Assembly (NCBI GenBank): GCA_028690035.1
Contig: JAQVCA010000003.1
Coordinates: forward strand, 266,710 to 330,709
Direction: 5' to 3'
From: Comamonas sp.
Lineage (GTDB): Bacteria; Pseudomonadota; Gammaproteobacteria; Burkholderiales; Burkholderiaceae_C
Length of the DNA stretch: 64,000 bases
This document shows, piece after piece, positions 6,903-51,548 of the stretch (positions are counted from its first letter, which is position 1; every line of letters starts with the position of its first letter). The notes beneath the pieces were generated by a model. The model ran no database searches. It saw nothing but the letters and a program-made list of their open reading frames with translations, and had not been told where the DNA came from. Made by a program: the position numbers and the translations under genes.

Positions 6903-7336
6903 GTGAAGCCCACCAGACCGCCGCTGGTGCAATTGTGGAAACACAGCACTGGAGGAACGTCCGGACTGCATAGGGCAGCGTAGCAGCTAACGGCTGTCCA
7001 CCGTGAGGTGAGGATCAGAGCAACAGAGACGAGTCAGGTCGTTTTCTCAGCCACCAAGGGTGTTCTATGGGGGGCCAGTGCAAGCTGGCGCCGGCTGGCG
7101 CAAGCCAGACGCTCAGGCGCAAGCCTGAAGCCCATAGCCGCACAAGGCGCGGAACGCGACTTGGGTGAAACGGGCAATCTCTACGCGCAGCAACACCAAG
7201 TAGGCACACGTTGACGGGGCCCCCGGAGTGTGCGGGTAGGTGGCATCGAGCCGGTGGGGCGACCCCCGGCCCAGAGTAATGGCGGTCACGCCCAGGCAAC
7301 TGGGTGCACAGAATCCGGCTTATCGGTGGGCTTCAC
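6903..7336 (+). ncRNA. rnpB: RNase P RNA (bacterial type A)
   Basis: The catalytic RNA of RNase P, which trims tRNA 5' leaders. The conserved cores are present: GAGGAACGTCCGGACTGC near 6952, AGAGTAATGGCGGTCACGCC near 7274, and ACAGAATCCGGCTTATCGG near 7309. The ends are set by the P1 helix: GTGAAGCCCACC at 6903-6914 pairs perfectly with GGTGGGCTTCAC at 7325-7336. A weak AATAAT -10 box at 6890-6895 fits a start near 6903. Confidence 0.97.
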
Positions 7337-7454
7337 ACTTTTCACAGGTTTTTTGGGTCGCATGGACGGGCGGCCCTTGGCGCCCGCTGTAGTGCAACAG
7401 CGTGTCACTGCGGTGGCAGCATTTGCACCCCGGCCCGGGTCAATAATCGCAGCC

Positions 7455-47364: not shown

Positions 47365-49401
47365 ATGCCACGCCACCCTTTCTTCAGCATTACCGCCCAT
47401 TGGCTGATCAGCGCCGCTATGCAGGCGCTGCGCCATGTCGTCTGCTGGGTGGGCAAGGCCTTGGTGCTGTGGCAGTGCGCCCTGGGCATGCAGGCCCAAG
47501 CTGCCGATCACGAGGCGATGGCCCCGGTGGTGCGCCTGGGGGCCTTGTCGGTGGTGGACGAGGCCGATGCCCTGCGCCGCTGGCAGCCGTTGGCGCAGTA
47601 CCTGCAGACCGCACTGGGGCTGCCGGTAGCTTTGCAAGTACACGATCTGGCGGCTTTGGAGCATGCGGTGGCACAGGGAACGCTGGATTTTGTGGTCACC
47701 AACCCGGGGCAGTATGTGCTGCTGGAGGCGCGCTATGGCGCCACGCGCATTGCCACCCTCTCCGCCGCACAAGGCAACCCTGCGCATGTGGTGGGCTCGG
47801 CCGTGGTGGTGCGGGCGCAGGGCGATTTCGCACAGGCGCTGCCCACGGCGCTGGAGCAGCTGCGCGGGTTGCGCCTGGCAGCGGTGGCACAGGACGCTTT
47901 TGGCGGCTACCAGTTGGCAGCCGCTGCCTGGCTGCGCCAAGGCGTGGATCTGCAAAATGGTGCGATGCCGCACCTGTTCACCGGCTACCCCATGCAGCGT
48001 GTGGCCCAGGCGGTACTGAGCGGGCAGGCCGATGTCGGGATCGTGCGCACCTGCCTGCTGGAGCAATGGGAGCGCGATGGCGTGGTGCCACTCGGTGCGT
48101 TGTATGTGGTGCCCGCAGCGGCGTCGGCCCAGGAGGGCGCAGCGCCAGACGCAGTGCCCGAAACAGCACCAGGGATGCACGTCTGCCGCAGTTCGACGCC
48201 CCTCTACCCAGGCTGGGCGTTTGCGGCCTTGCCAGCGGCAGCGCCCGAGCGGTCGCGTCAGGTGCTGCTGGCGCTGCTCAACCAGCCCGCCCAGCCGGTG
48301 GCCAGGGCTGCCGCGATGGATGCAGAGCTGGAGGTGCCCGGCGTGTGGAGCGTGCCCGCCGATTACCACGCTGTACACGATGTGCTGCGCCAACTGCAGG
48401 TACCGCCCTATGCCTTTTTGCGGGACACATCCATGCCCGCCTTGCTGCGCCGCCACTGGGGCTGGGTGGCTGCGGTGTTGGGTGTACTCTTGGTTGGAGC
48501 GGCCTACCTGCTGCACGTGGAGGTCTTGGTCAAGCGCCGCACGGCGCAGTTGACCCACAGCCTGCAAGAGCGCGAACGTCTGGCACGCCAGAATGCACAG
48601 CACCAGGAGGCGCTGGGCCATCTCTCGCGCCTTTCCATCCTGGGTGAGCTGTCGGCAATGCTGGCACACGAGCTGAACCACCCCCTGGCCACCATCAGCA
48701 ACTATGCGGCTGGGTTGCGCCGCCGGGTGGCACAAGGGCAGCTGACGCCGCAGGCTCTGGAACAGGCCTTAGAGGACATTGCCCAGGAAAGCGAACGCGC
48801 CGCTCGCGTGATAGGCAGTGTGCGCGCATTGGCGCGCAAGCGCGTACCAGAGCGCAGACCAGTGGCCCCGCTGGTGCTGGCACAGCAGGCGCTGGATTTG
48901 CTCAGGGGCGGGCAGCACACCGAGATCCAGCTGCACAGCGCCTGCGGCGCAGAGCACTGGCGCGTGCAGGGCGATGCCCAGCAACTGCTGCAAGTGCTGC
49001 TGAACCTGCTGCAGAATGCGCGCGACGTACACCGCCAGTGCGGCTGTGAAGGCCAGGCCATCGAGCTGGAAATCGCCACCGAAGACGGCCAATTGGCCCT
49101 GGCCGTGCGTGACCACGGCCCCCCGCTGTCGCCCGAGGCGCTGGCGCAGCTGTTCACCCCGTTTCATACCACCAAACCCGATGGACTGGGCCTGGGCTTG
49201 TCCATCAGCCGAGGTATTGCCGAAGCCCACGGTGGCGCTTTGCGTGCCTGCACGGTGGCGGCTCAGGACGGTGGTGGCATGCGCATGGTGCTGCTGTTGC
49301 CACTGGCCGATGCCGATCCTGCAAGCGCGATGACCCCTGTTTTGACGACTCTGGCGTATGAACGACGATACCTTACCGCCTTGCATTCATGTGGTGGATG
49401 A
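47365..49401 (+). CDS. TtrS-like sensor histidine kinase with PhnD-type periplasmic domain
   Basis: A 678-residue kinase. After an N-terminal membrane/signal segment, residues ~50-345 form a PhnD-like periplasmic binding domain (VRLGALSVVDEADALRRWQP... DFVVTNPGQYVLLEARYGA), the design of TtrS, the tetrathionate sensor. A membrane helix (~370-390, WGWVAAVLGVLLVGAAYLL) leads to a HisKA domain with H435 in AMLAHELNHPLATISNYAAG and an HATPase domain (LLNLLQNARD, GLGLGLSISRGIAEAHGG). It probably senses tetrathionate or a related sulfur oxyanion. ATG 47365 is preferred, but MQALRH at 47419 is possible. It overlaps the response-regulator gene by 44 bases. Confidence 0.85.
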   Translation: MPRHPFFSITAHWLISAAMQALRHVVCWVGKALVLWQCALGMQAQAADHEAMAPVVRLGALSVVDEADALRRWQPLAQYLQTALGLPVALQVHDLAALEHAVAQGTLDFVVTNPGQYVLLEARYGATRIATLSAAQGNPAHVVGSAVVVRAQGDFAQALPTALEQLRGLRLAAVAQDAFGGYQLAAAAWLRQGVDLQNGAMPHLFTGYPMQRVAQAVLSGQADVGIVRTCLLEQWERDGVVPLGALYVVPAAASAQEGAAPDAVPETAPGMHVCRSSTPLYPGWAFAALPAAAPERSRQVLLALLNQPAQPVARAAAMDAELEVPGVWSVPADYHAVHDVLRQLQVPPYAFLRDTSMPALLRRHWGWVAAVLGVLLVGAAYLLHVEVLVKRRTAQLTHSLQERERLARQNAQHQEALGHLSRLSILGELSAMLAHELNHPLATISNYAAGLRRRVAQGQLTPQALEQALEDIAQESERAARVIGSVRALARKRVPERRPVAPLVLAQQALDLLRGGQHTEIQLHSACGAEHWRVQGDAQQLLQVLLNLLQNARDVHRQCGCEGQAIELEIATEDGQLALAVRDHGPPLSPEALAQLFTPFHTTKPDGLGLGLSISRGIAEAHGGALRACTVAAQDGGGMRMVLLLPLADADPASAMTPVLTTLAYERRYLTALHSCGG

Positions 49402-50005
49402 CGATGCCCATTTTTTGCGCTCTGTGCTGTTTTTGATTCAAGGCCTGGGCTTTGAGGCCGTGGGCTATCCCAGCGCAGAAGATTTTTTACAGATGGCCCC
49501 CATCCCGGTACCCCAGGGATGCTGTCTGCTGCTGGACATCCGCATGCCCCGAATGAGTGGTCTGGAGCTGCAGCGGCGCTTGCTGGAGCAGACCACCACG
49601 GGGAGCATGCCCCTCGTCTTTATGACAGGGCATGGCGATATCGATCAGGCCGTGCAGGCCTTGCGCAGTGGCGCCACCGATTTTTTGCAAAAGCCCTTCA
49701 GTGAACAGACTTTGCTCGATGCCCTCAACCGAGCGGTGGCTGCCAGTGCCCAAGCCCAGCGCCAGCAGGCACGCCAAACACAGGCCTTGCAGATGCTGCA
49801 GCGCCTGACGCCGCGCGAGCGCGATGTGGCGCGTCTGCTGGCGCTGGGCCACAGCAACAAAGAGGTGGCCCGTGTGCTGGACATCAGCGATCACACCGTG
49901 CACGTACACCGCCAGGGCATCACCCGAAAAATTGGCTCTGGCCATGCCGCCGACCTAGCGCGGCTGATTCTGCGCGCCGCCCCCCAGGAGCTGGACGACG
50001 GCTGA
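49358..50005 (+). CDS. TtrR-like response regulator, FixJ/NarL type
   Basis: A 215-residue response regulator. The receiver domain has the acidic pocket D14-D16, phospho-acceptor D60 (LLLDIRMP), T90 and K112 (LQKPF). The C-terminal LuxR-type helix-turn-helix reads LTPRERDVARLLALGHSNKE then VARVLDISDHTVHVHR. The overlap with the kinase gene supports a cognate pair. Likely targets are the divergent tsdA promoter and its own operon. The order and fold match TtrS/TtrR, but no tetrathionate reductase genes (ttrABC) are present. Confidence 0.87.
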   Translation: MNDDTLPPCIHVVDDDAHFLRSVLFLIQGLGFEAVGYPSAEDFLQMAPIPVPQGCCLLLDIRMPRMSGLELQRRLLEQTTTGSMPLVFMTGHGDIDQAVQALRSGATDFLQKPFSEQTLLDALNRAVAASAQAQRQQARQTQALQMLQRLTPRERDVARLLALGHSNKEVARVLDISDHTVHVHRQGITRKIGSGHAADLARLILRAAPQELDDG

Positions 50006-50185
50006 GTGCGCGACCATTACATAGATGCATAAAATCCATGAAAACGCATTCTTCATGCGTTAAATAAAAATTTACAAATCAAAAATTGCTTTGAATTGGT
50101 TTTTTTATAGATTTTTGCAGTTTTATTGATTTCCGAATATGACTTATTTTGCAATGCAGCAAAAGTAGTGCTACATTGCTCGGCT
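50006..50185. other. AT-rich intergenic stretch before the aroG leader
   Basis: About 180 bases, much richer in A+T than the surroundings. It contains an AACGCAT/ATGCGTT hairpin (50043-50061) without a T-run on the plus strand, the probable aroG promoter, and a GCAATG...CATTGC inverted repeat (50151-50156 with 50174-50179) enclosing GTAG-TG-CTAC. The last could be a 5' mRNA hairpin or an operator. No gene seen. Confidence 0.6.
50115..50143 (+). promoter_or_regulatory. Probable sigma-70 promoter of the aroG leader transcript
   Basis: TTGCAG at 50115-50120 and TATGAC at 50138-50143 with the ideal 17-base spacer, in AT-rich DNA. Transcription would start near 50150, about 36 bases before the leader-peptide start. 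Confidence 0.5.
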
Positions 50186-50245
50186 ATGACTTCAGTGCGC
50201 CGCGCTTTTTATTTTTATTTTTGGTTCTCTGTCCAAGGCGGATGA
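50186..50245 (+). CDS. Aromatic-rich leader peptide of the aroG attenuator
   Basis: A 19-residue open frame reading MTSVRRAFYFYFWFSVQGG, then TGA. It contains seven consecutive aromatic residues (Phe-Tyr-Phe-Tyr-Phe-Trp-Phe), far beyond chance, directly upstream of the first gene of aromatic amino-acid synthesis. Such peptides make ribosomes stall when the charged tRNA is scarce, as for trpL and pheL. The ribosome-binding site is weak (nothing better than CTCGG), which is the main weakness of the call. It has no homologue that I can name. Confidence 0.65.
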   Translation: MTSVRRAFYFYFWFSVQGG

Positions 50246-50322
50246 GAGGCAAGCGCTCGCACGAAAACGAACACCCAACCTCCCAACAACCGCCGCAGCT
50301 GCACCAGCCCGGCGGTTTTTTT
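50237..50322 (+). promoter_or_regulatory. Transcription attenuator of aroG (antiterminator and terminator segments)
   Basis: The terminator is CCGCCG (50290-50295) with CGGCGG (50310-50315), plus an inner GCTG/CAGC helix, followed by seven T (50316-50322). A competing antiterminator can form from GGCGG at 50237-50241 with CCGCC at 50290-50294 and GAGG at 50246-50249 with CCTC at 50279-50282. CGCC at 50198-50201, within the leader codons, can pair with GGCG at 50237-50240 to block the antiterminator. This is the classical 1-2-3-4 layout. Confidence 0.7.
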
Positions 50323-50381
50323 GTACCCGGTTTTTCCTTCCAGCTTGCTCCAAGCATTTTTACAACACACGAGGCCGACAT

Positions 50382-51548
50382 ATGACCGCTCAACATTCTT
50401 CCTCCAGCGATTCCTGGTACCGCAGCGCTGCCCCCAAGACTGGACAGACCGACGACGAACGTATCAAGGACATCACTGTGTTACCCCCTCCCGAGCACCT
50501 CATCCGCTTTTTCCCCATCCAGGGCACCCCGGCAGAAACCCTGGTCAGCCAAACGCGCAGCCACATCCAGCGCATCATGCGCAATGAGGACGATCGTCTG
50601 CTGGTCATCGTGGGCCCTTGCTCCATCCACGATCCGCATGCCGCCATCGACTACGCCCGCCGCCTGGCCGACGTGCGCGAGCAATACAAAGACACGCTGG
50701 AAATCGTCATGCGTGTGTACTTTGAAAAGCCCCGCACCACCGTCGGCTGGAAAGGCCTGATCAACGACCCCTACTTGGATGGCAGCTACCGCATCGACGA
50801 GGGCCTGCGCATTGCGCGCCAGTTGCTCATCGACATCAACCGCCTGGGCGTGCCGGCCGGCAGCGAATTTTTGGATGTGATCTCGCCCCAGTACATTGGC
50901 GACCTCATCAGCTGGGGCGCCATTGGTGCGCGCACGACTGAGAGCCAAGTCCACCGCGAGCTGGCCTCGGGCATCTCGGCGCCGATTGGCTTTAAGAACG
51001 GCACCGACGGCAACATCCGCATCGCCACCGATGCCATCCAGTCGGCCAGCCGGGGCCACCACTTTTTGTCGGTACACAAAAACGGCCAGGTGGCCATCGT
51101 ACACACCGCGGGCAACCAAGATTGCCACGTCATCCTGCGCGGCGGCAAGGCACCCAACTACGACGCGGCGCATGTGGCTGCGGCCTGCGCCGATCTGGAG
51201 AAAGCCGGGCTGCCGCCCACGCTGATGGTCGATTGCAGCCACGCCAACAGCAACAAGCAGCACGAGCGCCAAAAAGACGTGGCCGCCGACATCGCGGCGC
51301 AGATCGCCGCTGGTTCACGCCAAATTTTTGGCCTGATGTTGGAAAGCCACTTGGTGGCAGGCGCACAAAAATTCAGCGCGGGCCAAGACGATGTGTGCCA
51401 GCTGGCCTACGGCCAAAGCATCACCGACGCCTGCATTGGCTGGCAGGACACCGTGGCCGTGATAGAGCAGCTGTCCCAAGCCGTGCAAGCCCGCCGCGCC
51501 CAGACTGCGCAAGAGCGCGCCAGCACCGCAGCAACGCTGACAGCCTAA
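50382..51548 (+). CDS. aroG: 3-deoxy-7-phosphoheptulonate (DAHP) synthase, class I
   Basis: A 388-residue DAHP synthase, first enzyme of the shikimate pathway, joining phosphoenolpyruvate and erythrose-4-phosphate. Conserved stretches: LLVIVGPCSIHDPHAAIDYA, RVYFEKPRTTVGWKGLINDP, PAGSEFLDVISPQYIGDLIS, GFKNGTDGN and DCSHANSNKQ with metal ligands. It is of the AroF/G/H type, usually feedback-inhibited by an aromatic amino acid; which one cannot be read here. An attenuator precedes it, which suggests control by aromatic aminoacyl-tRNA levels. A terminator follows 74 bases after the stop. Confidence 0.96.
   Translation: MTAQHSSSSDSWYRSAAPKTGQTDDERIKDITVLPPPEHLIRFFPIQGTPAETLVSQTRSHIQRIMRNEDDRLLVIVGPCSIHDPHAAIDYARRLADVREQYKDTLEIVMRVYFEKPRTTVGWKGLINDPYLDGSYRIDEGLRIARQLLIDINRLGVPAGSEFLDVISPQYIGDLISWGAIGARTTESQVHRELASGISAPIGFKNGTDGNIRIATDAIQSASRGHHFLSVHKNGQVAIVHTAGNQDCHVILRGGKAPNYDAAHVAAACADLEKAGLPPTLMVDCSHANSNKQHERQKDVAADIAAQIAAGSRQIFGLMLESHLVAGAQKFSAGQDDVCQLAYGQSITDACIGWQDTVAVIEQLSQAVQARRAQTAQERASTAATLTA

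Follow-up and report, generated by a model that had tools for sequence, protein, structure and literature searches.

In transcription attenuation, the position of the ribosome on the leader decides which of the alternative helices forms. Multivalent leaders are known for the branched-chain amino acids, and to our knowledge no multivalent leader for Phe, Tyr and Trp is known. The leader analyzed here, found upstream of aroG in Comamonas sp., shares control codons, three predicted alternative helices, a Rho-independent terminator and a stop codon at segment 2 with the enterobacterial trp, pheA and ilvGMEDA attenuators, which are listed in PMC1183508. Unlike these enterobacterial attenuators, the aroG leader targets the entry enzyme of the pathway, encodes three aromatic amino acids and has no Shine-Dalgarno sequence. 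In E. coli, TyrR and TrpR control genes of aromatic biosynthesis, aroF and aroH for DAHP synthase among them; a comparative study reports that both regulators are missing from the proteobacterial classes outside Gammaproteobacteria (PMC5343134).

A documented precedent for a leaderless layout is trpLE(G) of Sinorhizobium meliloti, an operon whose transcript starts at the leader ATG and which is reported not to be subject to repression (PMC7298713); it differs from the aroG leader in that it is a Trp leader, belongs to an alphaproteobacterium and lies before trpE(G). For a DAHP synthase gene, control by a leader peptide has already been proposed in Acholeplasma, where uORFC-13-1, located before aroF (DAHP synthase), is likewise a predicted leader-peptide attenuator (PMC8632094). 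The 24 representatives of uORFC-13-1, from Acholeplasma and environmental sequences, carry at least one Phe codon and, as reported in the same source, have a ribosome binding site; their likeness to the aroG leader is one of description. Similar leader peptides are also encoded by two candidate uORFs with Phe and Tyr codons at shikimate genes, which come from a five-genome survey (PMC6429828); HIMB5, T. lienii, Arcobacter and Baumannia, which are named there, are not betaproteobacteria. Given these prior proposals at DAHP synthase and shikimate genes, the aroG leader would be a variation on known attenuation. Among the matches listed in a search of titles and the starts of abstracts of open-licence PMC papers, none described a betaproteobacterial aroG leader, an absence that is not proof of novelty.

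The leader frame and terminator upstream of aroG

The locus lies in a window of 64,000 nucleotides (the whole stretch of DNA analyzed); coordinates below are positions in this window, and the leader, its promoter, its helices and aroG all lie on the plus strand. The leader frame, MTSVRRAFYFYFWFSVQGG including the stop, spans 50186..50245 (19 codons; ATG at 50186, TGA at 50243-50245), and its codons 8-14 read F Y F Y F W F (50207..50227). It is followed by an intrinsic terminator hairpin with seven T (50289..50322), in which the arms ACCGCCG (50289-50295) and CGGCGGT (50310-50316) run into the T stretch at 50316-50322. The aroG ATG, at 50382, lies 59 nt beyond this T run and is preceded by GAGG (50371..50374), the likely Shine-Dalgarno sequence of aroG. 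The gene itself (50382..51548) encodes a class I 3-deoxy-7-phosphoheptulonate (DAHP) synthase, as identified by TIGR00034 (E 5.5e-162; score 538.3 bits, cut-off 173.2), and the score of its product against the AroG equivalog NF006723 is 554.7 bits, under the cut-off of 568. The 19-codon frame with its seven consecutive aromatic codons and the terminator with seven T had been described in an earlier note on this DNA, and every coordinate given there was reproduced.

The observation of an aromatic leader followed by a terminator was confirmed as real and well past chance. An ATG frame with at least seven aromatic codons in nine arose in 8/5000 dinucleotide shuffles of 50006-50381, and a 9-codon window with seven Phe, Tyr or Trp codons occurs only in this aromatic run within the 64 kb, both strands included. 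Folding of the leader region, which the earlier note had suggested as a check, gave a z-score of -2.20, with 6/200 shuffles equally or more stable. The possibility of a chance frame was rejected on the shuffle count and on the conservation of the frame with aroG described below. A known Rfam leader was likewise rejected, as no leader or T-box family matched among the Rfam covariance models, either at the gathering threshold in the whole window or at E<=10 in 50000-50400. Elsewhere in the window, the class A RNase P RNA was found at 6905-7338 (Rfam RF00010).

A predicted leaderless start

The earlier note had overlooked that the leader ATG lies right behind a conserved predicted -10 box and has no Shine-Dalgarno sequence. 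The predicted promoter consists of an extended -10 element, TGC-TACATT (TGCTACATT, 50169..50177), for which both sequence and conservation speak, and a predicted -35 element, TTGCAA (50149..50154), placed 17 nt from the -10. A second short aromatic-rich frame, MNWFFYRFLQFY, with a TTG start, is found at 50091-50130 in the AT-rich stretch 5' of the predicted promoter.

Across the host's family, 103/108 loci carry a TAnAnT hexamer ending 6-9 nt 5' of the leader ATG, most often 7 nt; the other five comprise one locus with an odd promoter (L014) and four for which the script had picked an earlier start codon. The positions T4, G5, T7, A8 and T12 of the -10 region are invariant across the 58 rows of the family alignment. 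Some near relatives, such as L031, L033 and L048, have TTGCAC or TTGCAA at a distance of 16-17 nt upstream of the -10, a motif that is not evident in distant ones. Transcription from sigma-70 promoters starts about 7 nt past the -10 box, and this spacing would put the transcription start at 50184..50186, at or just 5' of the AUG and at most 2 nt from it. A Shine-Dalgarno-like 4-mer at 3-16 nt before the start codon was found in 0/108 leaders, compared to 95/109 aroG starts. Because the conserved -10 box directly precedes the ATG and no Shine-Dalgarno sequence is present, we predict a leaderless mRNA that is read from the AUG at its 5' end. Leaderless mRNAs have been reported in Burkholderia and Cupriavidus (PMC4603805, PMC7563307), and the main text of these transcription start site papers contains neither aroG nor words beginning with attenuat-.

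Conservation within the family

Conservation was assessed in the host's family (GTDB Burkholderiaceae_C, called Comamonadaceae here) at 110 aroG loci collected with AroG, 30 from one family genome set and 80 from a second that includes Comamonas, Delftia, Acidovorax, Limnohabitans, Polaromonas, Variovorax, Ramlibacter, Hydrogenophaga, Rhodoferax and Curvibacter; the same organism is present more than once among the 110. The leader was found 5' of aroG in 108/110 loci, and the remaining two, L060 and L109, have just 31 and 175 nt of upstream DNA, too little sequence to be included in the leader counts. Codons for Phe, Tyr and Trp are all present in 106/108 leaders (L058 and L103 lack Trp), in agreement with the proposal of mixed Phe/Tyr/Trp codons made for the Comamonas leader alone, and Phe is the commonest aromatic amino acid in all 108. 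The order of the aromatic residues varies among relatives (FYFYFWF, FYFWFF, FYFWFYF, YFFYFWF), with the Trp and Tyr codons changing position, and there are 82 distinct peptides among the 108 loci. Order thus shifts while composition is kept, as expected under selection on codons rather than on one peptide. In every one of the 108 leaders, the stop codon falls 6-31 nt beyond the first base of GGCGG, and 23 nt or more separate it from CCGCC downstream. Conservation of the aromatic run and of GGCGG/CCGCC in relatives had been put forward as a test of the earlier reading, and the presence of the leader in 108/110 loci bears out the attenuator part of that reading.

A covariance model (R1) was built from 58 family leaders, and the family alignment (A1) comprises 58 of the 108 leaders, chosen below 88% identity. 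When searched against 120 genera representing an even draw of the family, R1 matched 116; since 29 of its 58 source sequences come from these same 120 genomes, the independent matches amount to 87/91. The four genomes that were missed are G043 (80% complete), G055 and G074 (90%) and G093 (55%), and neither G055 nor G074 has an aroG match at 1e-100. In all 111 cases with leader and listed aroG row on one contig, the leader lies 21-132 nt 5' of aroG on the same strand, and the remaining five R1 matches sit on contigs for which no aroG row was listed.

Distribution outside the family

Among 399 genomes of the host's order, R1 matched 99, of which 12 belong to the family. Of the 87 non-family genomes that were positive, 51 were inspected, and the match precedes aroG in 50 of them. 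The resulting set of 50 non-family leaders derives from 18 loci plus 33/34 loci, with one place counted twice; L174 (no aroG) and L180 (the same place as L139) were dropped. A wider model (R2) gave, at E<=1e-6, 104 full-length matches in 103/399 order genomes (counted by eye), representing all 12 family genomes of the draw and 91/387 other order genomes, a count that includes genomes on which R2 was trained. Matches weaker than about 1e-5, mostly fragments over the terminator end of the model, were not counted. Twelve order genomes without a strong R2 match were also tested; eight have aroG, and no such leader was found at their 12 aroG-like loci, one of which (L197), with 6 aromatic codons in 9 beside the terminator of another gene, was judged by eye to be unrelated. 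The leader is therefore not universal within the order.

The leader is also rare outside the order: in a class-wide draw of 369 genomes, four from outside the order (G674, G782, G522, G783) reached E<=1e-6 with R2. All four matches precede aroG, three of them with an ATG leader encoding Phe, Tyr and Trp and the fourth (L190) with a GTG frame, VNTPCARFYRWYYFPKPPAEEGVRAF.

The non-family leaders encode Phe and Tyr in 48/50 cases and Trp in 24/50, and a TAnnnT box is found 5-10 nt before the ATG in 26/50. Sensing of all three aromatic amino acids and leaderlessness are therefore not universal among these leaders. In one non-family group (L125, L126, L135, L150, L151), a terminator pair has changed from A-U to G-C (AGCCGCC..GGCGGCT); the leaders of this group encode Phe and Tyr and no Trp.

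Predicted competing helices

The earlier note had named all four segments of classical attenuation, and its segments 2, 3 and 4 were retained while its segment 1 was not. Segment 2 (50237..50249) combines GGCGG (50237-50241) with GAGAGG, holds the leader stop codon and could pair with either segment 1 or segment 3. Segment 3 (50279..50294) combines CCTC (50279-50282) with CCGCC (50290-50294) and could pair with segment 2, as the antiterminator, or with segment 4, as the terminator. The predicted 2:3 helix joins GGCGG with CCGCC and is extended by a helper pairing of GAGG (50246-50249) with CCUC, both as claimed in the earlier note. When segment 4 was omitted, the 5'-most five nucleotides of segment 2 paired with segment 3 in all 58 family folds. 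As segment 1, CGCC at 50198-50201 had been named; a CGCC between the ATG and the aromatic run is found in just 7/108 leaders, and in the minimum-energy fold of the Comamonas leader the bases around it pair with bases near 50251-50263 as an outer stem. Segment 1 was reassigned to the conserved UUCUC plus GUCC at 50225..50234, which overlaps the last aromatic codon: UUCUC (50225-50229) would pair with GAGAG (50244-50248) and GUCC (50231-50234) with GGAU (50240-50243), as indicated by folds and pair counts.

Across the 58 family sequences, the mean energies are -10.1 (1:2), -17.1 (2:3) and -16.5 (3:4) kcal/mol, and the terminator is more stable than the antiterminator in 26/58. The 2:3 pairing is GGCGG:CCGCC in 54 of these sequences, GGUGG:CCGCC in one and GACGG:CCGUC in three. 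In these last three (L015, L018, L098), segment 1 reads CGUC, so that with GACGG in segment 2 and CCGUC in segment 3 both alternative pairings are kept, and 3:4 persists with a U-G pair; this compensated change in three strands is probably a single event. L100 has CGUC in segment 1 with an unaltered GGCGG, a point against the attenuator model. RNAalifold on the family alignment found the terminator alone and no covariation, since GGCGG/CCGCC hardly varies within the family.

More variation was available in a set of 47 sequences (38 of the 50 non-family leaders plus 9 from the family's 108). For 3:4, 95.7% of the cells were paired and 25 were doubly changed, a number reached by 0/500 shuffles; the number of doubly changed pairs was matched by 27/500 shuffles and the number of pair types by 500/500. 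For 2:3, 86.0% of the cells were paired (reached by 25/500 shuffles) and 12 were doubly changed (1/500), and the two outer flanking pairs do not form in 19 and 20 of the sequences. When the inner 2:3 arms were swapped between species, 14/5000 permutations were as stable as the native combination. For 1:2 plus 2:3 on the 58 family sequences, 97.2% of the cells were paired, with five doubly changed cells (0/500 shuffles); sliding the pairing by +1 or +2 columns gave covariation scores of 0.057 and 0.066 versus 0.057, but with about half of the cells paired. UUCUC and GAGAG were paired in 94.5% of cells and two of their pairs showed a double change, but the between-species swap test for 1:2 (298/5000) was not significant. 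Taken together, the paired changes support the predicted terminator and antiterminator, and less so the 1:2 hairpin.

Proposed mechanism and alternatives

Conservation, codon content and helices make it highly probable that the aroG leader is a ribosome-mediated transcription attenuator, leaderless, which would sense charged tRNA-Phe, tRNA-Tyr and tRNA-Trp together. Sequence comparison establishes the frame, its aromatic composition, the -10/ATG layout without a Shine-Dalgarno sequence and paired changes in the potential helices; the initiation point, the ribosome stall, which amino acids are sensed and the direction of control are inferred in the course predicted here. Transcription would begin at or beside the leader AUG. 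With Phe, Tyr and Trp all ample, the ribosome would reach the UGA in segment 2 and cover GGCGG, leaving segments 3 and 4 to form the terminator. When any one of the three is scarce, the ribosome would stall in the F-Y-F-W-F stretch and cover segment 1, and the free segment 2 would pair with segment 3 (GGCGG:CCGCC plus GAGG:CCUC), so that no terminator forms and aroG is transcribed. If the leader is not translated, 1:2 and 3:4 could coexist and transcription would stop. The ribosome footprint extends about 12-13 nt beyond the start of the A-site codon. A stall at W13 would therefore cover 50225-50234 and leave 50237 onward free, and stalls at F10-F14 would likewise mask segment 1, releasing segment 2. 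By the same footprint, ribosomes stalled at F8 or Y9 would fall short of segment 1, suggesting that the earliest aromatic codons are too far 5' for a stalled ribosome to cover it. The codons and this geometry suggest that aroG would respond to shortage of any of Phe, Tyr and Trp.

It is conceivable that the attenuator is real and senses Phe and Tyr alone, the Trp codon being tolerated and unused; the prevalence of Phe in every family leader and the non-family composition, with Trp in half as many leaders as Phe and Tyr, would fit such a reading. Against this, Trp is kept in 106/108 family leaders while its position moves, and it often lies just 5' of segment 1, where by the geometry set out above a stall would cover segment 1 and free GGCGG. 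We consider this alternative unlikely, although it deserves some weight. Nascent chains are able to arrest ribosomes, and an arrest by the leader peptide, in the manner of a TnaC-like sensor of free aromatic amino acids, could replace slow decoding. The residues after the aromatic run, S-V-P-G-G, indeed look conserved in many relatives, but their codons overlap segments 1 and 2 and this overlap can account for their conservation, while the order and number of aromatic residues vary (82 peptides in 108 loci) and the C-termini of the leaders diverge (GG, ADER, REASA). Arrest by the nascent peptide is very unlikely.

A role in trans, alongside attenuation or in its place, might be played by the terminated leader RNA or by the peptide of 19 residues, as has been reported for rnTrpL and peTrpL of S. 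meliloti (PMC7298713). The layout resembles that of rnTrpL in that a small mRNA is predicted from the ATG to the terminator, yet peptide composition is conserved more than sequence, and we hold action in trans to be quite improbable. Finally, the hairpin might be the terminator of the upstream gene, accompanied by a chance aromatic frame. That gene (49358-50005) shares the strand of aroG and resembles FixJ/TtrR-type response regulators, its best NCBIfam scores being below cut-off; it is, though, separated from the terminator by about 280 nt, with the conserved -10 box in between. The conservation of the frame with aroG in 108/110 loci refutes this explanation, to which we give practically no credence. 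Attenuation by a ribosome that would respond to all three aromatic amino acids is the reading followed below.

Related leaders at trpE and leuA

A Trp leader (..GAWPWRKP..) was found before trpE in all 30 family loci inspected; a trpE match was present in 55/60 family genomes, from which these 30 loci were taken. In the host genome, this leader (L209) is located at G000:C17, upstream of trpE at 134762-136159:-, and its relatives are L212-L240. A TTTGCTACACT-like box lies 6-10 nt before the ATG of the trpE leader, as placed by a script that favored starts with a TAnnnT box, and the trpE leader is also predicted to be leaderless. Leu leaders (e.g., MFTQATTLLLGMSIGQSQ) were found in the host genome (L184, G000:C14:232474-232493) and in five relatives (L144-L148). 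All six have the same -10/ATG layout plus a terminator and precede 2-isopropylmalate synthase genes (leuA), an identity checked for two of the six loci, L184 and L146. A pattern search of the host genome returned two places, both of them such leaders, and a reversed control pattern also returned two.

The second DAHP synthase gene of this genome, 58% identical, has no such leader and closely follows another gene, and no aromatic leader was found at the prephenate dehydratase gene. TrpR (TIGR01321) and the TyrR-type HTH domain (TIGR04381) had no match in the genome.

It seems fairly probable that Comamonadaceae use leaderless attenuators for aromatic amino acid and leucine synthesis, with a tri-aromatic leader at aroG and single-amino-acid leaders at trpE and leuA, in each case on an mRNA that would start with the AUG and need no Shine-Dalgarno sequence. 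The conserved aroG leader would offer many natural variants in which to study how leaderless initiation is coupled to transcription termination, and relatives lacking the whole leader, its Trp codon or its leaderless layout would serve as controls. A conserved tri-aromatic attenuator would explain how entry into the shikimate pathway is matched to three end products by a single cis element and, if the proposal is true, these leaders would be the transcriptional sensors of the shikimate pathway in bacteria that lack both TrpR and TyrR.
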